A stretch of 64,000 nucleotides of DNA from Acidobacteriaceae bacterium (GTDB taxonomy: Bacteria; Acidobacteriota; Terriglobia; Terriglobales; Acidobacteriaceae), in the NCBI GenBank assembly GCA_025355385.1, contig JANXZS010000121.1:1-64000 (forward strand). Reading direction: 5' to 3'. The notes under the pieces were generated by a model. It was given only the letters and a program-made list of their open reading frames with translations. It was not told the DNA's origin and made no database searches. The translations under genes were made by a program, and so were the position numbers. This document shows positions 1 through 64,000 of the stretch, piece after piece; positions within the stretch are counted from its first letter, which is position 1, and each line of letters begins with the position of its first letter.

Positions 1-62
1 ACCAGCCGCTCGATCTCCCCACGGCTACGACGACCAACCAACACGCCAGCATCCACACTCAT
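1..62 (-). CDS. IS66 accessory protein TnpA-like, N-terminal fragment
   Basis: The first 20 or so codons are visible, starting MSVDAGVLVGRRSRGEIERL, and the frame continues past the window edge. The RRSRGEIERLV opening resembles the small HTH-type Orf1/TnpA proteins of IS66-like elements in Acidobacteria. It lies just inside an IS66-type terminus, which supports the call. The role in transposition is inferred from the family. Confidence 0.55.
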   Translation of the reverse strand, partial: MSVDAGVLVGRRSRGEIERL

Positions 63-119
63 CACCAGAGTTCATCACAAACCCCATCCCGCTAACAGGT
101 GCGTTGCTCGGTCGCTTAC
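1..119 (-). mobile_element. End of an IS66-family insertion sequence
   Basis: The element runs off the left edge. Read on the minus strand, its terminus starts GTAAGCGACCG (111-119), which matches the GTAAGCG end typical of IS66-family inverted repeats. Inside lies the start of its first small gene. IS66 elements usually make 8-bp target duplications, so 120-127 (tttagaca) is the candidate duplication; the partner copy is outside the window. Confidence 0.7.
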
Positions 120-50910: not shown

Positions 50911-53900
50911 TTGGCGAAAACGAAGATTGGTCGAAATGATCCATGCCCCTGTGGATCCGGAAAGAAGTGGAAGAAATGTCATGGCGGCCCCAAGGCAACG
51001 CCCGCAGCTTCGCTCCCTGATCTCTCATCGTTCTTGGACTACCTTAAATCCCAGCCTTCACCGAGTGCTCTCCGCATCAGTGATCTGCGCACCGATCTGA
51101 AGGACCTGACCTCAGAGTTGCAGAACTACGACCCAGAAAAAGTCATTTCTGCATCCGCGGTTCTGGCGAGTGTGGCCGAAAATCACACGTTAGTCTATCG
51201 GATCAACGCATTGATTCTGATCGCTTCACTTGCCTGCAAAGGGGCACAGACACCATCGATTGCAGATCTCGATCGATGGTTGAACAGATCAATTTCTGAA
51301 TCTGCGGCGGGTCGCTTGGAGGATCCGGCCGAGGATTTTGCCATTGGTCTTGTGCGGACGCATACCGGCAATCACCTGATCTTCAATGGGTCGCTCAGTG
51401 GCCCGGATGCTTATCTTCAGGATGTGCTCGATGCGCTCACAGAAGGCCCTGCCAGCTTGGCGCCATTTATCTCAATCACAGAAGCCGTTTTGACGGTTTC
51501 TGATGAACTCGTCCGACGCCGAGGATATGACCGCTTCACTTCCGGTTCAGGCACTCACGAGGCTGTCATTCTGCCTGAGTCCGACGAGGCCCTGTGGCGT
51601 TTGGTCCTCACACAAACGTTCACCGCGGTGGATTTTCCTCCCCTGGGCACCCTTGCGAGTGATCTGCGACACTTCTCGCTCACCCTCGACGAGCTTCGAA
51701 AAGACGCGCCCAACTCGACGCTTGTGCGTAGTCGGCAGCAGGTTTTTCTCCGCCTCGGAGATGCGTACCTGCTGATATTTCCAGCCTCCGTTGCCGATGC
51801 TCTGATCGAGTCCACCCTTCGCGAACTGAATGCCAGAAACATGATTCGGGGATTCAACAACCAGTTGAATCGTCGACAGGGTGGTCGCATGTTTGATGAC
51901 GCACGACGCCATTTCGGAGCCGAGACTATCGTTGCGGACGAGCAACCTCTCAATGATCTTCCGCGACCTGCCGGCCTGTCCGATGTCGTGTTGCGCTTCG
52001 ATAACAATCGATATTTCCATCTCATTCTGCTCCACGACGACATGAGAGATGTGGTCAAGGACGGGTTCGACACGACACGTCCACCCAATACAGCTGTCAC
52101 GGATCACATCCGCCATGTGGCGACCATTCTCGCGAAGCGCAGCGACTACGTGAACGGCTTGACACTGGTCGTCATGCTCGGGGTGCGCCGCGCCTACGGA
52201 GTTGCGATTCCAACAGAGCTGCCAGCGAACTGGTTCTTGCAGGTCTGGTCTTTATACGATTTCGAACGTCTCCAATGGCTCGAACGAAACTGGGAAAGTA
52301 TGCTCTGGAAGCTCTCGAAACAGAGAGACACTCTGTCAAAGCGGCATATCGAGTACATGGCCCCGGACGATGCGATCCTCTACGCTTCGTGGATGAATGA
52401 AGACTACCGCCTCATTCCCGGTGGAGCAACAGAACCGGGCCCACTGCTCACCCCCATCTTCTGTGGCGAAGTCTTTCGCTTTCGAGAGATGGCTAGACTG
52501 CGGCTTGATACCCACGCGGCATATCGACCAGATTCTCAGAGTTGGGTCACCGTCTGTCGCGTCAATCCTCTTTCTTACTTCAAGGATGACCAACTCAGTC
52601 TGAGGTACGGCGCGCCCGACTTTGCCGCTGAAGGTCGTCTTGTGGGCGCCATCGTCACATCGCAAAGGATCTGGTGGATCGACTGCAACGCGCGGCTCTA
52701 CCCGGATGCAGACCGACTCTATCTCATGAAGGTATGGGAGACGGCGAACATCTGGATGGCCCGTGTAGCCGCTGTTGCTGAACAGCAGCTCCGCAGCCCC
52801 GTCTTGCAGAATCCTATTATCAGCCTCGATGTGTCAGGCGTCGCAACGATCAAAGACTGGTCGATGAGAGCCTTGGAGTCCATTGCTCCTGTAACCGAGT
52901 TTGCGACCGAAATTGATTTGCACGGATTCACCGTGAAGATTCCTGCCGGGTTCGTGACGATGGGCCGTACACCCGAGAATCACGCAGAAATGCTCTTGGC
53001 AAAGGCGCTCGTATCAGGCGCCGCCCTTCTCGGCGGCAAACCCCTTTCGGGATCGAACGTCGAGGCAGAGATTGCAGCGCTCCACATTTCTCCCGACGAG
53101 CGCCACATGCACACGATCGTCGCGTCGGATCACCGCGATTACCTCAGAGAGTTTGCGGAAGATGACTTTCATCTCTTGGAGACGCAGATACTCACTTTGC
53201 AGACGCTGGCGTTGCCTATGAGGCGGGATTCACCGGGCCGGTGTTGATCGAAGGTCGAGATGAAGGGAATGATTGTCTCAAGAAGATCGTCGATGCCTTC
53301 TGGCAGCGATGCAAACGACAGTTGGAGAGATTGGACCGTCGTTCCCTCGTGATCCGCTGCCTCAGCAACAACGAGGCAGTCATGACGGAGCAAGACAACT
53401 GGACCCGCACAAGACGAGCGGTTGCCGCTTTGCACAAAGACCGCGAAGATGTTCTTTCCGCATCACTTGCCGTCCGCCAGAAGATGGATCGGACGCAAAT
53501 CTCGCACCGCTTGCTCATTGAAATGGCGATTTGTACTTGCCCCGAGACGGGTGGCAGACAAGCTAACCAGGAAGACATCGACCATCTGTGTGCACAGGTG
53601 CTTCAGTTGGCGGCGACAGCCCAAGAAGCGGATGCCATGCGGGCGGAGGCAATCCCGCCTTGGGTGAGGTTGGGGTTGGCGGGCGACGTTCGTCTGGCTT
53701 CGGACTTCTCCGGATTGATGAGACCGTACATGTCCAGCCATTTCGAAATCACCCATGAGTCCGACGTGGCGCGCTACGAACAATATCTCGAAGAGCCAAA
53801 GCGAGGTTCCAAGACAGAAGCCGAAGTCTTCGGCGAGACGTTCCTCAATGCTTTCCTCGACGAGTACGGAATCTCTCCAATACGGCTGGCCGACGTTGCA

Positions 53901-54731
53901 GCGATTCTCGCGGAAGATGCTCTCCTGCAACAACGGAACGTAGTCGTTCGCTCCAAAGTCAATCTACGCTCCGACCTAAGCACCAGGGGCTATTCTGACC
54001 GTGAGATCGACCGCCTCTTCCGGCACTTCGTCTTGCCGGCACGGCCCGATTGGACGGTCGTTTCTCCGCCATTCCGTTCCAAGGACTGGTGGCCTTGGCG
54101 CTACAAGAGGAAACTATCTGTGATGAATCGTCCGCTCATTGCTTTGAACGATGCAGAAGTCGCCTACGCTCCTGGGTTTTGCGAGGATTCTTTCCGGCAT
54201 GTCGCTTCAGAGGTGTTTACAGGCTCATTTGAGCCTGAGTACTTCACCGCACCGGCAATGCGCAAGTACGTAGGTTCTACGAATGCCGCGCGCGGCTTAG
54301 AGTTCAATAAGTCTGTTGCTTCCAGATTCAGGGAGGCTGGCTGGAATGCCTGGACCGAGATTGAAATGAGCCAACTCCACTGTCCGCAAGATCAAGCCGC
54401 TGGCGACATCGACGTGGTTGCCGAAAAAGACGGGATCGTCTTTCTCTGCGAATGCAAGGATCTTTCCTTCGCCCGCACGATTACAGAAGTGGTGGAACAG
54501 TTAGGGAGGTTCAAGGGCAAGCATGGTGACGAATTGTGGAAGCACCTTCGCAGGGCCGCGTGGATCAAGAACAACGGTTCGCGACTCCGACACGTCATCG
54601 ACCGAGAGCCAGCCGACATTCTCTCTCTGCTGATATCGAGCAAGATCGTGCCGATGCAACATGCTGAGGGCTTCGCAGAGCAGGTAATCCCCATCGACGC
54701 GCTGCCCGAGTTCTTGAACGCCTTGGTTTAG
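50911..54731 (+). pseudogene. Large SEC-C / PD-(D/E)XK protein, one frameshift
   Basis: TTG start with GAGGT upstream. The N-terminus is a SEC-C zinc motif (IGRNDPCPCGSGKKWKKCHGG). About 730 residues without a domain I can name follow. The first frame ends at 53247; the next (from 53241) reads on. At TTT 53196-53198 one added T gives a smooth join (QILTFADAGVAYEAGFTGPV), so a single protein of about 1273 residues is likely. Its last quarter holds GDIDVVAEKDGIVFLCECKD, a PD-(D/E)XK nuclease signature (Asp, then Glu-x-Lys), preceded by ARGLEFNKSVASRFREAGW. SEC-C and PD-(D/E)XK domains are frequent in defence islands; here it stands beside CBASS. Role as a defence nuclease is inferred. As written, it could also be two overlapping genes. 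Confidence 0.65.
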
Positions 54732-55400
54732 GTGGCGTCTCGGAGCAACGGATAATCCACGCCCTCTGCGGGGAGGACGAGCCGCTGTGGCCATCGGGGC
54801 ACGTCATCGGTCTGCAGCTTATCCTGTTCGGCGATATGTGCCCGATTTCGCGGGGCAGAGTGGCGATCAGTGAGAACGCATCGCCTGGAAGACACTTCAC
54901 CACGGAGCCTCGCCCTGAGGCTGGCGATAGCAGCGTCATCCGCCGGTACCCTGGGTGAATGGGGGTAAGCTTGAAAAGGTGTCAACCAGCGCATAAGAAG
55001 GAGCCGAAAAAGGGCGAAGACATGGAACCGACCGATGACGATGCGCCCAATCTAACGTAGACGTTGGTAGCGTTAAATGCGGCTCTCGCCAGTCAGCATT
55101 ATCAACCGGTGCCAAATCGCCTTACCACTTATTGAGAGGGCGATGCAATCCCCACGCTCCGCGCACACATTGCACACCAGAAACGTCCACCGCCGCATCC
55201 AAGCGCGCCAGGACGGCTTCGATCTGCTGACGGCGAGTCAGCAGATCAGCTCTGGCCAGCGGCCACACAGAATCTTAGGGTCGTCGCGATTTCCGAACGA
55301 ATGGAATCATCGGTCAGTCATTGAGGAGGTAGCTATCATCCAACTGAGAATTTGTCTCGAATGGAGAAGCGATCCAACGTAACTCACCGACGCGCTGCGG
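54732..55400. other. Gap upstream of the broken patatin gene
   Basis: No patatin N-terminal motif (G-G-G-x-[RK]-G or G-x-S-x-G) is present in any plus-strand frame. A minus-strand frame near 55130-55270 (LARADLLTRRQQIEAVLARLD) looks protein-like but is unassigned. The junction with patatin sequence lies near 55400-55420. Confidence 0.45.
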
Positions 55401-56029
55401 GGCACCGGATCGGGAAGACCAACCACCGCGACGATGCTTACTCACTCGTTGACGTTTGCTTGGCCTCCAGCGCTGCTCCCGTTTACCGGTCCGTAGCAGC
55501 CATCGAAGCCCCTGGGCACAAGGGGCACTTCGATACCTTCATCGACGGCGGTCTCTGGGCCAACAATCCGATCCTTGTGGGACTGATCGATTCCTTGGAG
55601 GTTGCGGCCCCTGAACAGCCCATTGAGCTGTACGCGCTTGGAACCTGCCCTCGTCCAGCAGGTACGTCCATAACCCCGAAGGAAGTCCACCGCGGCCTGA
55701 GAGAGTGGAAGTTTGGCGGAGAGGCTGCCGTCATCGCCATTGATGCGCAGGAATTCACGTTCGATCACATGGCCAAGCTCCTAGCCCCCCATCTGAGGCA
55801 CGATTGCCAGGTGATTCGCTTTCCCCGCGAAGCAGTGCCAGCAGCGATGATGGACTACCTCGATCTTGATGACACCCGTAGCGAGGCAACTGACGCGCTG
55901 ATTGGTTTAGCTCGAACGGATGCCGATCTAACGAACAGCAGATGTAGTGATCCCAATGACCCGCATGGGTTGTTGGTGCAAGCCCTGTTTGAATCCATGC
56001 CTGAACTCGAAGTGGGAGAGGAGAAGTAA
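55352..56029 (+). pseudogene. capV: Patatin-like phospholipase CBASS effector (CapV), N-terminally truncated
   Basis: Only the C-terminal part of a CapV-type patatin is present, from about NHRDDAYSLVDVCLASSAAPVYRS onward. The dyad Asp motif is intact (FIDGGLWANNPILVGL), followed by the usual helical end. The N-terminal half, with the oxyanion loop and the G-x-S-x-G nucleophile, is absent from the DNA upstream. CapV is normally a cyclic-dinucleotide-activated phospholipase that destroys the membrane of infected cells; without the serine this copy cannot be a lipase. It overlaps the CD-NTase gene by one base (TAATG), as in intact operons. Confidence 0.8.
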
Positions 56030-57090
56030 TGTTCAACTGCGCAGACGAGATAACCGCCTACCACAACCAGAAAGTTACCCTGCCCCAAGAAGACCGCACT
56101 GCCATGCGCGATCGGCGGAACGCCAACAGAGACAGGCTGAGGGATGGTCTGGAGGGGAGGAAAAAGCAACAGCCATTCGCCTTCCATAAGCAAGGCAGCT
56201 ATGCCATGTTGACGATGGTGCAACATGACGATAACGCCTATGACATCGACGATGGCGCCTACTTCGACAAGGAAAATCTGGTCGGAGACCGCGGCGGTGA
56301 AATGTCCGCGCTTGACGCCCGCAAGATGGTCCGAGATGCAGTAGACGACGGTTCATTCAAGACGGCGCCGGAGGTCCGTCAGAACTGCGTCCGCATCTTC
56401 TATGCTGCCGGCTACCACGTTGACATGCCGGTATACCGGAAGCGCATCGAAAAGAACTTCTGGGGCCCCGACGAAGAGATCTATGAGATTGCCGGTTCCG
56501 ATTGGAAGCGCTCGGACGCGCGACTGGTGACGGATTGGTTCAGCCAGGAGAACACGAACCAGAGTCCGGATACCAACAATGGGCGTCAGCTCCGTCGCAT
56601 TACGCGCCTGATCAAGAAATATGCGCAGAGCCGGGCGAGCTGGGAGGGCCTGATGGCGAGCGGCTTCGCTATCACCAAGTTGGTCACCGAGTGCTACCGT
56701 AAGGACGCGAATCTCGAAGACTGCGCGTTGCGGAATACGATGCGCGCGATCAAGAACCGCCTTGATGGAAGTCTTGTTGTGAAGCATCCTACGACTCCGG
56801 ATGAGACGATCAGCAAAGGGAACGATGACCCGAAGCTTCGGTTTTTGCGAGAGAAATTGGAAGAGGCTCTCGATAAACTCGATGTCCTCGACTCGGCGGA
56901 CTGCACACGAGAGGAGGCTCTGAAGGCCTGGGACAAGGTGTTCAGCACCAACTTCTTCTCGGAGAGAGCCGATTCTGCGAAGGCAGCGCGTTCCGCGCCG
57001 GGCATCCTCACGTCCGGCATTATTGGATCACTGGCTGCGAACGCTGAGCAGGTTCCCGTGCGGAAAGAGGGCGGCGGACGGTTTGCCTAG
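56029..57090 (+). CDS. CBASS cyclic-dinucleotide synthase (CD-NTase, DncV-like)
   Basis: The 353-residue nucleotidyltransferase has the motif set of CD-NTases: FHKQGSYAMLTM (the G-S loop), YDIDDGAYFDKEN (first two metal Asp) and GYHVDMPVYR (third Asp). KRSDARLVTDWF and the helical lid (RQLRRITRLIKKYAQSR) complete the fold. On phage infection such enzymes make a cyclic dinucleotide that activates the effector. DIDDG with a Cap2/Cap3 pair fits type II CBASS of DncV-like enzymes; the exact clade and product are not decided. It is downstream-coupled to Cap2. All catalytic residues look intact. Confidence 0.92.
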   Translation: MFNCADEITAYHNQKVTLPQEDRTAMRDRRNANRDRLRDGLEGRKKQQPFAFHKQGSYAMLTMVQHDDNAYDIDDGAYFDKENLVGDRGGEMSALDARKMVRDAVDDGSFKTAPEVRQNCVRIFYAAGYHVDMPVYRKRIEKNFWGPDEEIYEIAGSDWKRSDARLVTDWFSQENTNQSPDTNNGRQLRRITRLIKKYAQSRASWEGLMASGFAITKLVTECYRKDANLEDCALRNTMRAIKNRLDGSLVVKHPTTPDETISKGNDDPKLRFLREKLEEALDKLDVLDSADCTREEALKAWDKVFSTNFFSERADSAKAARSAPGILTSGIIGSLAANAEQVPVRKEGGGRFA

Positions 57091-58894
57091 CTCCGATCAA
57101 TTCGATGCGGCCGCTCTGCAACTGGACGAGTGGCTGCGAGGCTTTCAGAACGTTCGGCCACTCTCATGCGACGAATGCGCGGGCTATCATCCTCGATTGA
57201 TCGAGAGCGGTTGGGAACTGGACCTGAGCGGCGATCCTGCTATTGGTTCCACCATAAGGGTTCTGCTTCCAGAGTCGTTCCCTTATGCTCGGCCTCTCAT
57301 CGCAACGTGTTCCAAGCAGTTTCTGGTGTGGCCTCATATCGAAGAAGATGGGGTCATCTGTACGTTGCCACTGTCGGCCACGTTTAATCCATATGACCCG
57401 TTGGCCGTGACTCAGTACGTACTGAACGAGGGGGCTGAGGTCGTTAAGCAAGGACGCTCCGGAACAAACCTAGACGACTTCCGGCAGGAGTTCCACTCTT
57501 ACTGGGATCGCGCGGTCACAGAGAGCAGCGTGCCCGTCATCAGCACGTTGACCGACTTTGCGTCGCCACGGATCATCAGCGCCTGATATGGAAAACACCA
57601 TGTCATCGTGGGGGGCAGCGACGTCAAGCTTCAGGAATGGATGGACAGGCGCTTTGGCAGGGCCAAGGATGACCGCATCTTTGAGCCGGGGATTCTTCTC
57701 CATCTGGATGTCCCTTTACTTCCGGATCAGTATCCCCGACGTATCGCGGACGTCGGCAACATGGTGCAATCGCTTGATCGAAGATCACGAACTCTGCTGA
57801 CCAGACGCTTGCTCGCAGACAAAACGCGCAGCCTTCTTGTGCTTGACGCTCCAACGACGAATGGAAGAGCGCTGGCTGCGCTGCGTCTAATCCCCCCCTC
57901 TGGTAAGAACATGTGTGGCCACAAGGTAGACGTGCGCCAAAATGGCTTTCGTCCTGGGCACGTGCCGGAAACCTTGGAACTAAGTCGCTATTTGAACAGC
58001 GCCCCGGCTCCTCAGCGGCTGAAGGTGAAGCGTGCCGATTCGAGCTGGATTCATGGGCGGGACGTCGATCCCAAGGCCCAACTGCTGGCGCAGAAGAAGA
58101 TCGCGATCATCGGCATTGGCTCAGTCGGAAGCTTCGTCGCCGAACTCCTCGCGGCCTCAGGCGTCGGAAGCCTCACCCTGGTCGATAACGAAACTCTCAC
58201 CTTCGCCAATGCCGGCAGGCACCTGCTTGGAGTCGATAGCGAAGGGACGTACAAATTTCAGGGAGTTGCCCAATTACTGCAGAAGCGCTTTCCACATCAT
58301 TCCATAACCGGGGTCGTCTCCGACGGACAGCTTTTCCTCCGCGAATCCGCCTCACACAATCAGTCATACGATCTCATTCTGAGTTTGGCAGAAGACTGGG
58401 AGTTCGATTGCTTCCTCAACGACCAATACCTCAGTCCGTTGAGCGCCAGTTTCAAACATATCGTTTTCGGCTGGACCGAACCTCACGCCGTGGCGGGACA
58501 CGCGGTCTTGTTAACTGGTGGCAATGGCTGCTTTCTATGCCACTTCCAAGAGGACGGTCTGCCCAAGCTGAAGATTGCTCAATGGACGCAGGAGACCATG
58601 TTCAGCGAACCGGCGTGTGGCGGCACGTTTCAGCCGTATGGTCCCGTCGAGATCATGGCCATCAACTCCATGATTGCGTCCCCCGCCATTGATTCGCTAC
58701 TAGGGAAGGCTTCAAGCAATCTGCATCGAGTCTATGTCTCAGATGAGGCACGGATTCACGAAACTGGTGGTGAGGTCACCTCCGAGTGGCGATCTCTTCG
58801 CGGTGCGGTACCAGGCGATATCTCGGCGGTCCTGAGCCTAGCGTGGCCCGAGGAGACGGGTTGCGCTCATTGCAGGGTATCGAATGTCGCTTAG
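57083..58894 (+). pseudogene. cap2: Cap2 E2-E1 conjugation enzyme with an in-frame TGA between domains
   Basis: The E2-like domain runs from a TTG near 57083 (LPSSDQFDAAALQLDEWL), overlapping the CD-NTase end, to TGA at 57584-57586; its active-site cysteine is in EEDGVICTLPLS. The ThiF/E1-like domain follows in the same frame: ATP loop IAIIGIGSVGSFVAELLA, LVDNETLTFANAGRHLLG, and a candidate catalytic Cys in EPACGGTFQPYGPVE. In known systems Cap2 is one chain that joins the CD-NTase C-terminus to a target and so boosts signalling. Replacing TGA by a sense codon such as TGG would restore it. Two separately translated chains, or a read error, are alternatives. Confidence 0.8.
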
Positions 58895-59345
58895 GATACC
58901 GCTGGGTGACTCCGCCGAATTGGTCATTCTTACGGACGCTGTTCTTGAGCATTTCCGGCGCTATCGGCAGCTGCGCAAGAGAGACACGGAAGCTGGCGGA
59001 CAGCTGTTCGGGCGAATTCAGGGGCAGACCATCACCATCGAAGAAGCCACTGGTCCCCGGAGCTCGGATATCCGGTCCCGCTATTCCTACGTCCCGGATC
59101 GAAAGGCCGAGCAACGCGAAATTAATGAACGCTTTCCTTCGGGGCTGCACTTCATCGGGGACTGGCATACTCATCCCGAGCCAATCCCACATCCCTCGGG
59201 GACGGATCTGGACAATATGCGAGAATGCGTAAACAAATCGCGGCGCGCCATCTCAGGATTTCTGCTGATCATCGTCGGTACCGCCCCGCAGCCGAGCGGA
59301 CTTCATGCGTCGTTGCACAACGGAAAAGACACGCTCTTGTTGTAG
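58884..59345 (+). CDS. cap3: Cap3 JAB/JAMM isopeptidase
   Basis: The 153-residue metalloprotease overlaps the end of cap2 by 11 bases. The JAMM motif is complete: Glu in EAGGQLFGRI, then HTHPEPIPHPSGTDLDNM with the His-x-His and Asp zinc ligands. In type II CBASS, Cap3 removes CD-NTase from its conjugates and so reverses Cap2. Presence of both fixes the subtype. Confidence 0.92.
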   Translation: MSLRIPLGDSAELVILTDAVLEHFRRYRQLRKRDTEAGGQLFGRIQGQTITIEEATGPRSSDIRSRYSYVPDRKAEQREINERFPSGLHFIGDWHTHPEPIPHPSGTDLDNMRECVNKSRRAISGFLLIIVGTAPQPSGLHASLHNGKDTLLL

Positions 59346-59411
59346 ATAGCGGACGCGAGTGTCCCCACAGATCCCGATGCAACTGGCACTCAATAGACTG
59401 AGAGGTAGAAG

Positions 59412-61087
59412 GTGAAGCGGGCCATCCGTTTATTCATGTGGGGTTATCAACAACACTTCGCCAGCGCCTTGTTCCATCTCGCCGAGGGAGTTTTCAAAGA
59501 GCTCGGCGTATCGATGAAGCCAGATGTGCTCCTGGTCGGAGTGCTCAAGCCCGATGCCAGCGGACATCCCGTCTGCGTGGAGCCGGAAGACGGCAAGTGG
59601 GAGTTGGCGCTCTTTGACGCGATTCCCGAAGGATTTCCGAAGACGATCAAGAATCATCGCTTGCAGACCATGATGTACGGGGATGAGGCAAGCAACAACG
59701 ACAAACCCGAGAATATCCGAAGGTCGTCGGCGACGATGGTGATTCGGAATGCCCTCAAACCGTTCAATAAAAAGCATCGGTTGCGGTCCTTTTGCGGATG
59801 GCGCGACTAGTTGAAAAGTACTACGTTGTGCCCGTAATCCAAGTGCCTGAAGAGTTGTTTACCGAGTTTCCCCCTCTTACGCTTCCAGACACTAACGACG
59901 AAACCTGGCCCAGCGGCGAATACGGTCTCATCCTCTCGTGTCTCAGCGTGTTACTGGATGAAGCCAGTCGAGAGCTTCTTCTGCCTGACCCCGGTCGCTC
60001 GATCAATTCCAGCTGCGATCGGCCAATGAGATTGTGGCGCATGGAGCGGAGGCATTCATGCGTATTCCCGATATGCTCACCGCCCAGGAACGATATACCA
60101 CCGTCGGTCTCTTCCAGCGCCTCAACATCATTTCCTCGCTGCTGTACGAAAGAGCAAAGGGAACCGGCAGTCTGATCCTCGTGCGACCCAACCATCCAGA
60201 TGTTGATTACCTGGTTCGATTCCAGAAGCCGGTTCCGTTCCATGAACCCCGTTGGGCAAGGAAAATCCTCACGATGGCTGGCCCTGAGATTTCGCTGATC
60301 GCCAGCGGCGGAAGGATCTTGGGTCTCGGACGGCTCAAGCCGCAACATGACCCGTCTCGTTTCGACTCTTTCACGATCATCTTCCTGGACCATTACGAGT
60401 GGGAATTCCGCCACGACCAACAACCTCTCCTCTACAGCCACTATCGCGAACCACGTCTGCCACAGCCGCCTATCAGTCAGGAGCGCTTTCGGAGCAACTT
60501 CCTGCGGATCTTTCGGAACGCGAGCGCCAGGGATGCGGGTCGACTTTGGGGACTCTTCGAGGCCGGTGCCAGTCTGAACCACGGAAGCATGTTGGTCGTG
60601 GCGGAAGATGCGGCATCCGAGGCAGCTCGACTCTCGGATCAGGGCCCCGCGATCCGGCCTGCTCCCATGACCTCGGCACTCCTGGAGCGAGTGAGTGGGA
60701 TTGATGGAAGCATCTTGCTCGATCCTAGCGGGACTTGTCGCGCGATCGGCGTCATTCTGGACGGAGAAGAGTTCGAGGATTGCTCGCCCGCTCGCGGCTC
60801 ACGATTCAATTCGGCACTGCGCTACGTGCATGGTCGGGGAAAGGGGAGAATGGCAATCGTATTTTCCGATGATCGGACGGTGGATATTGTGCCGCTTCTC
60901 AATCCTCAGTATCAAGAAGAGCGAGATTGAGGAACACGTTGCCGCATTGGAGGGCGCTTCAAACGATACGTGTCACGCTTTTCAGAACTGGTTGGATAGG
61001 CATCGCTTCTATTTGAACGAGAAGCAATGCGATCGCATTAACATGGCCCTGAAACGTCTGGACGACCCAATGCGGATCAATATCTGA
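59412..61087 (+). pseudogene. DisA/DAC-fold nucleotide-sensor or cyclase-like protein, three frame breaks
   Basis: Joined frames give a protein near 558 residues. First part: MKRAIRLFMWGYQQHFASAL ... HRLRSF(L)RMARLVEKYYVV; second: IQVPEELFTEFPPLTLPDT ... LLLPDP; third: DQFQLRSANEIVAHGAEAFMRI through SGIDGSILLDPSGTCRAIGV and SPARGSRFNSALRYVHGR; last: KKSEIEEHVAALEGAS to LKRLDDPMRINI. The third part is a diadenylate-cyclase (DAC) fold: Asp-Gly-Ser in place of D-G-A and G-S-R-F-N in place of the R-H-R loop, as in the DAC-like sensor families (DACNV type). Breaks are at TTTT 59790-59793, CCCC 59989-59992 (one base lost each) and 60908-60913 (one base extra). Placed after cap3, it could add a second nucleotide signal or sense one; that is inference. 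Confidence 0.7.
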
Positions 61088-61698
61088 CGCAGCTCCGTAA
61101 CATCGCGGATCATACGACGGATGCCGGCGACACTTGGTTAGGCATTCTGCCTTCGGCAGAAGCGATGCCGATTCCCCAGCGTCGGGTGAATGTTGACGTG
61201 CTTCGCTCGTTGACCGGTGCGATCAAGAATCGCCAGTCTCTACATGTGCGGTATCAATCGATGAATAAAGAGCGACCGGGCCCGATGTGGCGATGGATCA
61301 GTCCGCACGCACTCGCTCATGACGGTTTGCGATGGCATGTAAGAGGCTTCTGTCACAAACAGAAAAGGTTCAAAGACTTCCTCCTCTCCCGTTGTCTCCA
61401 GTCGGGAGATCTCCACGATGCCGAGGCGCCGGCGAGTCAGGACAGAAATTGGAATGAATACTTCAGCGTTGTGTTGATTCCAAACCCTGCGTTAAGTTCA
61501 GAGCAACAAGACGTTATTGCTCAGGATTACTGCATGGAATACGGGCAGACCGCAATCGCAGTTCGTAAAGCTCTGCTTTACTACTTCAACAAGAGGTTGA
61601 GGCTCGACGTCGCCAAGGCAATTGACGATCCCAAAGAAACTCCAGTCGTGGTCCTGAATGAAAAAGCCTTTCAGGATGCGCTTGCAGAAGTGGGATAG
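61056..61698 (+). pseudogene. WYL-domain regulator fragment (CapW-like), N-terminus missing
   Basis: The readable frame begins about 61060 (PNADQYLTQLRNIADH) inside the last codons of the DAC-like gene and runs to 61698. It has a WYL domain (LRSLTGAIKNRQSLHVRYQSM, then PHALAHDGLRWHVRGFCH and FKDFLLSRCLQS) and a C-terminal WCX-like part. There is no start codon before the middle, and the winged-helix domain that such repressors need is absent. CapW, a wHTH-WYL repressor, controls many CBASS operons; this piece might be its remnant. The identity as CapW is a guess from the context. Confidence 0.65.
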
Positions 61699-61861
61699 CG
61701 GAACAAAGCGGAGGAGTGCCCTTCAGCACCTCTGCCGGCGTTTGTCGGTTAGACCAACTAATACGATGGTCCGCCGCTTAGATTGCGGCGGTGCATGTTC
61801 CCGATCCATCTCCACCTGAACAAGTACTGAGGCACTAGCCTTTTGGGGTACACTTGGCCCG

Positions 61862-62941
61862 ATGGCAAAGAAGAGCGACCGTTCCGGCACAGTGTATCTT
61901 CGAGGACAGATCTGGTGGGTCAAGGTCTATGTTGGCGGGCAGTCTATCCGGCAGTCCAGCAAATCAACCAGCAAGAAAAATGCCATGAACTTGCGGGACA
62001 AGTTGCTTGGCAGTCGGGCGCGCGGGGAACTCTCGGGCGGGATTCCTGACAGGGTTCTGATCAATGAACTGTTGGACGACGTCCTCAAGAGTGACATTGA
62101 AGAGTCTACCCGCAAGATATGGAGGCTGGTCGTTGAGAAGAGCATCCGACCGTTCTTCGGGAAGCTGAAGGCCACCCGGCTCACCACAGACAAGATGGAT
62201 CAGTACCGAAAGAAGCGCAAGGATGGCGGGGTGATGGATGCAACCGTCAACCGTGAACTCTCGATCCTGCGAACGGCGTTCCACAATGGCCGTAAGCGTA
62301 CCCCCGCCAAGGTCAACATAGTTCCCTACTTCCCCATGGTCAAAGAGACGACCGTGCGCCAGGGCTTCCTGTCTGATGAGAAGTACGAGCGGTTACGCGA
62401 TGAACTTCCGCACGAGCTGAAGGCGCTCTTTGTCTGCGATTACAACACCGGGATCCGCAAGAGTGAGTTGCTCGCCATCCGGTGGCCTCAGGTCGACTTC
62501 AAGGCTGGACTCATCACCTTGAGCAAAGGTGAAACAAAAGGTAAAGACGCCCGTACTTGCCCCATCCTAAATGGCGACATGCATGACCTCTTATGGGCAG
62601 CCTATCAAGAACGGCAGAAGAACTGGCCGAAGTCACCGTGGGTGTTCAATCGCTCTGGCAAACCGATCAAGAGCTTCCGCGGCGCCTGGAAGAGCGCCTG
62701 CCAACGGGCCGGTGTTTCCGACCTGCACCTGCACGACATGAGACGTACGGCAGTTCGCAACATGCGCGATGCAGGCGTGCCTCAGTCGATTCGGATGCAG
62801 ATCAGCGGTCACAAAACTGACTCAATGGAGCGGCGATACAGTATAGTGGATAGAGAGGATATCGTCATCGCGAAAGCCCTGATGGAGAAGAGGGTGCGAC
62901 GGTCGGAAATTGTGCCCGAGATTGTGCCCATCCTGGGATAG
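61862..62941 (+). CDS. Tyrosine recombinase (phage/ICE integrase)
   Basis: The 359-residue enzyme has a SAM-like core-binding domain (ESTRKIWRLVVEKSIRPFFG) and the catalytic domain: Arg in NTGIRKSELLAIRW, Lys in SKGETKGKD, HDMRRTAVRN (His-x-x-Arg), SGHKTDSMERRYS with His and the nucleophile Tyr. It lies 88 bp from a tRNA-Leu 3' fragment, which is its likely attachment site. It would integrate and, with the Xis-like protein at 49.9 kb, excise the island. Confidence 0.93.
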   Translation: MAKKSDRSGTVYLRGQIWWVKVYVGGQSIRQSSKSTSKKNAMNLRDKLLGSRARGELSGGIPDRVLINELLDDVLKSDIEESTRKIWRLVVEKSIRPFFGKLKATRLTTDKMDQYRKKRKDGGVMDATVNRELSILRTAFHNGRKRTPAKVNIVPYFPMVKETTVRQGFLSDEKYERLRDELPHELKALFVCDYNTGIRKSELLAIRWPQVDFKAGLITLSKGETKGKDARTCPILNGDMHDLLWAAYQERQKNWPKSPWVFNRSGKPIKSFRGAWKSACQRAGVSDLHLHDMRRTAVRNMRDAGVPQSIRMQISGHKTDSMERRYSIVDREDIVIAKALMEKRVRRSEIVPEIVPILG

Positions 62942-63028
62942 AACAGGATACTTTGCGATACAGGGCACAGCCTTAAGCTACTGATTCGATAGACCGCGCA
63001 ACCCACTGATACCTATGGACATAGTTTG

Positions 63029-63078
63029 AGGTGCTAGCGCCGCAAGGCATAGGGGTTCAAGTCCCCTCCTCCGCACCA
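63029..63078 (+). other. tRNA-Leu 3' fragment, presumed attachment site (att)
   Basis: The DNA gives the end of a class II (Leu-type) tRNA: a GCC-GCAA-GGC variable arm, T arm AGGGG-TTCAAGT-CCCCT (63051-63067), acceptor strand CCTCCGC, discriminator A and CCA (63076-63078). The matching 5' acceptor (GCGGAGG) and D and anticodon arms are not upstream, so it is a partial copy. Integrases of this class use the 3' half of tRNA genes. The intact copy was not found in the window. Confidence 0.75.
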
Positions 63079-63105
63079 ATACAAAGAATCAAGCACTTAC
63101 GAGAA

Positions 63106-63135
63106 GGCCAGCCCGAAACGGCTGGCCTCCTTTTT
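63106..63135 (+). terminator. Intrinsic terminator
   Basis: GGCCAGCC-CGAAAC-GGCTGGCC stem (63106-63127) followed by TTTTT (63131-63135), just after the tRNA fragment. It is probably the original terminator of the tRNA-Leu gene. Confidence 0.85.
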
Positions 63136-63209
63136 CGTCACTGTAGTAGTTTTTGTAGTGGTTGTAAGAAGGCGAAGGCTGAATCAGCGTCGAAGGACGG
63201 CCAATTTGC

Positions 63210-63830
63210 CTACCAACCATTTGGCTTGGCAAAGGTTCCCTTCCTGTCAGTGATCGTTCTCGGGAACTGACTTGCAGCCAAATCTCCCTGTCGGATACGC
63301 TTGAGGAAGATCGCGTACTGTCTCAGTTCCCTACTGTGAAACTGATGGGGATTGAGGAGCCCGACTGGTAGCCCAATCTCTTGCGCCACAATCCTAACCG
63401 GCTCGGCCAAATCTGAATCATTCGTAATCAGAACCGCTACCTCGAACTTCTTGACGTAAGCGTCCCTGAGCAAATGCGAGGCTAGATTCACGTCCGAACC
63501 CTTCTCCTCTGTCTTGTCCACCCAAACCTTTTGAGCGGGTACGACGTTAGTGAGGTACATGGGAACGGAGTGCGTCAGAAAATGCCCATACTTGATTTGC
63601 AGGTTGGGAATGGTTTTGAGTGCCCGAATGTACAACCCTTGGTCATGAGCCGACGTGGGATTGTACGGTCTGGAACTGACCCGTGCGGTGAAGTAGTGGA
63701 TCTCCTGAACCGTATCCGTTGGCAGCAAAATCGCCGCTAGCTTCCCCAAATCCAGCCACTTGTACGGTGTCCGCTTGAGCGCGCCGTAGTACAGATTGAA
63801 GCCATCTACATAAACATTGATGATTGCCAA
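63210..63830 (-). CDS. NYN-domain (PIN-like) putative ribonuclease, LabA-like
   Basis: The 206-residue protein has the NYN pattern of conserved Asp: VYVDGFNLYYGAL at the start, KGSDVNLASHLLRDA and VLITNDSDLAEPVRIV. The family are metal-dependent nucleases acting on RNA, sometimes linked to defence or RNA decay. Outside the att site, so it belongs to the host chromosome or to a neighbouring element. Confidence 0.88.
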   Translation of the reverse strand: MAIINVYVDGFNLYYGALKRTPYKWLDLGKLAAILLPTDTVQEIHYFTARVSSRPYNPTSAHDQGLYIRALKTIPNLQIKYGHFLTHSVPMYLTNVVPAQKVWVDKTEEKGSDVNLASHLLRDAYVKKFEVAVLITNDSDLAEPVRIVAQEIGLPVGLLNPHQFHSRELRQYAIFLKRIRQGDLAASQFPRTITDRKGTFAKPNGW

Positions 63831-63920
63831 GCACCGCTCCAGAGCTCCCCGTTTGACATGCCCGGCTTCGCCTGTATGATTGGAGAAGAAATTCCCCCTG
63901 CCCCTTGGTGAGCAGGAAGC

Positions 63921-63946
63921 GAAGCCAGCCCGAAAGGGCTGGCTTC
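63921..63946. repeat. Hairpin GAAGCCAGCCC-GAAA-GGGCTGGCTTC
   Basis: A perfect 11-bp stem with a GAAA loop, similar in sequence to the terminator at 63106 but without a T-run. Could be a terminator for the right-hand neighbour or a small REP-like repeat. Confidence 0.5.
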
Positions 63947-64000
63947 AGTGTTTGCGGAGCCTCATGCCGCCAGCATCTCTGTATTCGTCTTCGGTGCAGC

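Follow-up and report, generated by a model that had tools for sequence, protein, structure and literature searches.

A DS-2 type DAC sequence, very probably a pseudogene, behind the cap3 gene of a decayed type II CBASS operon

What is a second nucleotide-cyclase-like sequence doing directly behind a type II CBASS operon? The question is raised by the right end of a stretch of 64,000 nucleotides from an Acidobacteriaceae bacterium (contig JANXZS010000121.1; here called the window). The original prediction took the sequence for a single DisA/DAC-fold gene, which might bind the product of the neighbouring CD-NTase or make a second signal. Our best explanation is that it is a pseudogene of a DAC of the DS-2 type behind cap3, and that the operon, when intact, ran a circuit with two cyclases. 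Taken as a whole, we consider this explanation reasonably likely; its parts are held with differing confidence, as set out below.

The gene order at the right end of the window, all on the + strand, is a patatin (CapV) fragment, CD-NTase, Cap2, Cap3, DAC, a WYL fragment and a tyrosine integrase. The four genes of type II CBASS are all recognisable, and in order. What remains of capV (55394-56029) encodes the C-terminal portion of a patatin phospholipase of CBASS (PADLOC PDLC00758, E 2.9e-46, profile positions 143-321 of 331). It lacks the N-terminal ~150 residues, including the G-A-S-T-G nucleophile region. CapV homologues align with it only from residue ~150 on, and therefore the protein has lost the half that carries the nucleophile Ser region; the operon has no intact effector. 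The DncV-like CD-NTase (56029-57090) is open and matches PDLC00783 over its full length (E 3.6e-148; Pfam DncV-like_NTFase, E 3.3e-21). An active-site alignment with DncV shows that its GS...DID and later D motifs are retained. The E2 part of cap2 (57101-57586; Prok-E2_B, E 6.7e-17) is terminated by an in-frame TGA (57584-57586), and the E1 (ThiF) part continues in the same frame past the stop (57587-58894; ThiF, E 3.1e-20; positions 184-601 of 602 of PDLC00836, the PADLOC E1-E2 model). Intact Cap2 homologues span this TGA in a single frame, and full-length relatives match PDLC00836 end to end. The gene for the JAB-domain isopeptidase, cap3 (58884-59345; Prok-JAB, E 7.8e-14; PDLC00891, E 1.6e-61), is open; its HxH...D motif is present and the sequence HTHPEPIPHPSGTD is retained.

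As originally predicted, the DAC sequence (59412-61087) follows cap3 on the same strand; the distance is 66 bp. The DAC domains and the adjacency to CBASS have thus stood, but the assumption of one gene has not. The span is 1,676 bp, which is no multiple of 3, and three-frame translation shows that the coding sequence changes frame three times, giving four segments in shifting frames; a single intact gene is thereby ruled out. The breaks, positioned by tblastn with eight intact relatives, are at ~59798-59810, ~59998-60010 and ~60900-60911, and the four aligned segments (59412-59798, 59810-59998, 60010-60900 and 60911-61078) are each about 40-57% identical to homologues. The first (59412-59798) holds the N-terminal part of DACNG (Pfam DACNG, E 2.8e-30, and tblastn of intact DACs). 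The second, after the first frameshift (59810-59998), is placed by tblastn and covers DACNG positions 123-194. The third (60010-60900) contains DACNH and the DAC core with its DGS and RFN loops (Pfam DACNH, E 1.3e-25; NF053872 positions 207-496; tblastn). The fourth, after the third frameshift (60911-61087; tblastn), lacks the last ~20 residues when compared with intact C-termini, and at position 61087 stands the stop codon of a fragment continuing into the WYL remnant. DACNG, DACNH and DAC therefore follow one another in the expected order, but only across frameshifts. The NCBIfam family DS2_3_antiphage, to which the intact relatives belong, matches the two largest pieces (E 4.7e-37 and 6.6e-110); these reach 127.6 and 368.1 bits, against a cut-off of 630 bits set by NF053872 for one open protein.

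The pairing of a CD-NTase with a DAC protein is not new. It was reportedly noted by Galperin (2023), and it is a feature of the DS-2 system. DS-2, consisting of a phospholipase, a cGAS-like enzyme and a DAC, has been validated by DefensePredictor (PMC13092281; 2026), and the pairing was shown to protect E. coli from viruses. In the same paper, which credits Galperin 2023 for the DAC/CBASS association, 15 of 30 DAC homologues adjoin CBASS, and mutation of two predicted catalytic DAC residues eliminated DS-2 defence in E. coli (PMC13092281). Since both the pairing and the requirement for the DAC are already published, the question behind the original prediction has been answered in part. A complete DS-2 operon is found in 18 of 5,426 E. 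coli genomes. In E. coli strain 361 (L010) it lies directly upstream of capV-dncV-cap2-cap3, and in this strain DS-2, type II CBASS and Cap15/mCpol genes (Panoptes-like) adjoin within 10 kb (L010:5999-15676).

Relatives of the DAC were collected by a scan of one genome per species. This gave 34 loci, or 33 independent ones when a second assembly of the window locus (L032) is left out. A CD-NTase lies within 3.4 kb of the DAC in 23 of the 33, across phyla (22 by profile and one, L030, by tblastn). The same loci hold just one further CD-NTase, in L035, at a distance of about 5 kb or more, and in 10 of the 33 no CD-NTase was found. The search for the pair in other genomes thus bears out a recurrent association. 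The partner effector is a patatin in most loci and Cap15 in five (L011, L018, L021, L026 and L039); the DAC accompanies CBASS of differing CD-NTase groups and effectors. In Methylomonas methanica (L020) Cap15 and DAC stand side by side, with no CD-NTase detected about 9 kb either side; MazEF genes precede them (L020:8309-10752). Plasmid relatives in Citrobacter (47%) and Gluconobacter (43%) adjoin a patatin and a nucleotidyltransferase, and the family is found on plasmids and in defence islands. In Mucilaginibacter pedocola (L036:8995-13069), where no CD-NTase was found, a Piwi-domain gene lies directly 3' of the DAC. In Rhizobium ecuadorense (L042:8992-10709) the DAC is split into two ORFs with a 4-base overlap, which is either a frameshift or a two-protein version.

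The family is rare. The four genome sets sampled yielded it in 1 of 297, 1 of 250, 4 of 395 and 1 of 385, counts that include the query genome each time. No intact DAC copy was found in near relatives among 297 genomes of the phylum and 250 of the family, and the DACNG family was likewise absent from the other genomes of both sets. No DAC relative was found in phage records; IMG/VR holds one (L045), which carries CD-NTase and DAC. Among the papers searched, none of relevance came up under the names DACNG or DACNH.

The least documented part of the arrangement, and a modest lead, is the link of the DAC to type II CBASS, which is seen in the window, in Chryseobacterium limigenitum (L033) and probably in an alphaproteobacterium of the Hyphomonadaceae (L030). 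The Chryseobacterium locus is intact, in the order CapV, CD-NTase, Cap2, 2TM effector, one unknown ORF, Cap3 and DAC. The Hyphomonadaceae locus reads DAC, WYL protein, CapV and CD-NTase, and its contig ends before any Cap2; it is probably a type II CBASS and DAC locus, with a CD-NTase 51.5% identical to that of the window. In the DAC tree, well-supported branches separate the window DAC from that of Chryseobacterium, and therefore the association with type II CBASS was gained or retained on two or more occasions. No further type II locus with a DAC was classified among 395 genomes of the Chryseobacterium class and 385 of the class of L030, where L058-L063 (three genomes with matches) stand outside the neighbour analysis. 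Two acidobacteria whose CD-NTases are 48% identical to that of the window carry capV-cdn-cap2-cap3 in genomes that lack the DAC. For this reason we regard the DAC as an optional module, not obligatory for this CBASS lineage.

These last operons also fit a different explanation, namely that the window holds two neighbouring systems, the DAC being the leftover of a DS-2 operon that lost its patatin and CD-NTase beside an unrelated type II CBASS. The tandem in E. coli strain 361 is exactly of this kind, and in the tree the DAC of the window lies close to the DS-2 clade. However, the gene order in E. coli is the reverse of that in the window, and the gap of 66 bp between cap3 and DAC holds no trace of a DS-2 CD-NTase or a second patatin. 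Moreover, the intact Chryseobacterium operon has its DAC right after cap3, and in the Hyphomonadaceae locus the DAC is near capV and a CD-NTase similar to that of the window. Two neighbouring systems are thus an unlikely explanation, though one to be taken seriously, and we take the DAC for a part of the type II operon.

The structure of the DAC family provides clues to what the intact protein might do. An AlphaFold2 model of an intact relative (L013) has a mean pLDDT of 86.7, and its best fold matches in the PDB are DisA and CdaA (E 2e-6 to 1e-4), in the DAC domain only. Sequence searches of the PDB gave no match to either at E<=1; only the fold search found them. The model thus has the fold of a diadenylate cyclase, but the RHR motif of these enzymes is R[YF]N in 32 of 32 relatives, all of which also have DG[TASG] at the other loop; D438-G439 and R471-x-N473 are invariant in all 32. 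The DGS and RFN loops of the window fit this pattern. The original prediction was right that they are present and differ from canonical DisA, but they are normal for the family. Distant plasmid relatives are likewise without RHR. The spacing from Asp to Arg is 33 in the family and 32 in B. subtilis CdaA (D171, R203). DacA of M. tuberculosis neither bound ATP nor was active once its RHR had been replaced by AAA (PMC3328451). Because RHR is replaced in all members, and its loss inactivated DacA, the product of the family may not be c-di-AMP, and the protein might only bind a ligand.

For the intact operon we hypothesise that two cyclases would be needed. The CD-NTase would sense the phage and make a cyclic (oligo)nucleotide, while the DAC, under the control of its N-terminal sensor domains, would make or modify a second nucleotide by way of its D-G and R-x-N site. 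Both would be needed for the action of a membrane-attacking effector, which is CapV in the window and Cap15 elsewhere. That the DAC of the intact relatives is a putatively catalytic second cyclase, whose product is needed together with that of the CD-NTase, seems to us to have an even chance of being correct. It is favoured because defence is lost on mutation of the DAC, and because D-G and R-x-N are invariant over phyla.

The same mutations could also remove binding, and for that reason the DAC could be a pure ligand sensor: a DAC fold without catalysis, which binds the CD-NTase product or another nucleotide and gates the effector or the CD-NTase. The replacement of RHR throughout the family and in its distant relatives is what would be expected of such a protein, and Pfam calls the N-terminal domains 'probable sensor domains'. 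Against this, the invariance of the D-G and R-x-N residues argues for a working site, the DS-2 point mutations were made at predicted catalytic residues, and the varied CD-NTase groups and effectors mean that one sensor would need to read several products. We therefore think a sensor improbable, and prefer the second cyclase. A broader proposal makes the DS-2 type DAC a mobile accessory cyclase, which joins cyclic-nucleotide defence systems of several sorts (patatin-bearing type I CBASS, CBASS with a Cap15 effector, type II CBASS with Cap2/Cap3, and the Methylomonas Cap15 locus without a CD-NTase within about 9 kb) and makes a new nucleotide at its non-RHR site, needed beside or instead of the CD-NTase product. 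This is put forward tentatively, and is on balance doubtful.

None of this circuit can run in the present genome. The frameshifts in the DAC are real. A second assembly (L032, a Granulicella sp. MAG) differs from window 57794-64000 at only 2 of 6,207 nt, without any gap (99.97% identity), and it has the same four DAC ORF pieces and the same indels, which rules out sequencing error, with the proviso that the two assemblies could share reads. The locus is decayed, as is evident from the DAC frameshifts (the same in both assemblies), the truncation of capV and WYL, and the stop in cap2; mutations have left the DAC and most of the genes around it unusable, and the circuit is dead. The cross-talk between CD-NTase and DAC that was originally suggested therefore has no support in this genome, the DAC, the effector and cap2 all being disrupted. 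The composite reading of the DAC has no other stop in about 550 codons, which indicates that its decay is recent.

This same absence of stops is what could be said for a functional DAC, in which the frameshifts would be sequencing errors or programmed; it shows at most that the decay is recent. The identical indels in the second assembly, the open CD-NTase, cap3 and integrase next to it, the roughly 30 relatives with one open frame, and the combination of three shifts with the lost termini of two neighbours and the cap2 stop, which is a pattern of decay and not of recoding, make a functional gene very improbable. We are thus highly confident that the feature is a pseudogene of a DS-2 type defence DAC with the architecture DACNG-DACNH-DAC. 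A house-keeping c-di-AMP synthase of the DisA/CdaA kind, which shares the DAC fold and would have counted against the original prediction, is scarcely credible and is ruled out by distribution (present in 1 of 297 and 1 of 250 related genomes, and located on plasmids and in defence islands), by the missing RHR motif, and by the lack of any PDB sequence match to DisA or CdaA.

The 3' end of the DAC is fused to the truncated WYL gene (61063-61710, +; Pfam WYL, E 1.1e-10), a remnant of a CapW-like regulator, which aligns to residues 111-324 of the 332-aa homologue from the Hyphomonadaceae. It lacks the N-terminal ~110 residues with the DNA-binding domain, and its start coincides with the point at which the DAC is cut short by ~20 residues; a single deletion would give the joint loss. 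Downstream are an open tyrosine integrase gene (61862-62941, +; Phage_integrase, E 2.1e-22) and a duplicated tRNA-Leu(GAG) 3' end (63022-63078, +). The latter, to which intact tRNA-Leu(GAG) genes at other sites of the genome correspond, is probably the attachment site of an integrated element. The operon thus sits in an integrated, decaying defence island of a soil acidobacterium (Granulicella-like). Beyond the attachment site is a gene for a NYN-domain protein (63210-63830, -). To the left of window position 57794, the second assembly has instead a repeat end, which is also found at other genome sites with different flanks, and which is probably an insertion sequence inside cap2. This repeat end (L032:1-194; window 45-118) is 97-99% identical to other contigs and joins cap2 at 57794 in L032. 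Upstream of the operon, two adjoining ORFs in different frames (50911-54731, +) cover positions 8-724 and 758-1251 of 1271 of PADLOC Upx, so that this defence gene, too, may carry a frameshift.

The locus in the window is an ordinary relic and in itself matters little; its architecture is a modest lead. Its relatives, in which the pair of cyclases known from DS-2 also turns up alongside Cap2/Cap3 or a Cap15 effector, show that the arrangement extends beyond a three-gene operon. That RHR has given way to an invariant R-x-N poses a testable question, namely which nucleotide, if any, the defence DACs make.

The locus resembles four known systems, and differs from each. It has the same four genes in the same order as type II CBASS (CapV - CD-NTase - Cap2 - Cap3), but CapV is truncated, Cap2 is stopped in frame, and the operon is followed by a DAC gene as well as a WYL remnant. 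With DS-2 (NCBIfam NF053870-NF053872) it has in common the DAC family (NF053872, matched by both large pieces), a patatin effector and a CD-NTase. However, DS-2 consists of three genes without cap2 or cap3, whereas the window has both. The patatin and CD-NTase of the window match neither NF053870 nor NF053871, the respective DS-2 families, the CD-NTase matching instead NF041078 cGAS and PDLC00783; and the window DAC is frameshifted. CapW, the WYL regulator of CBASS, has wHTH, WYL and WCX domains and is reported to lie upstream on the opposite strand (PMC9122588). The likeness here is a WYL-domain remnant adjoining a CBASS operon, but it lies downstream of the operon, shares its strand and has lost the DNA-binding part. 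Finally, DisA and CdaA share with the window family the DAC fold, the DG motif and a nearly equal spacing from Asp to Arg, whereas the family has R[YF]N and not RHR, carries DACNG and DACNH in front, and has no HhH or membrane part.
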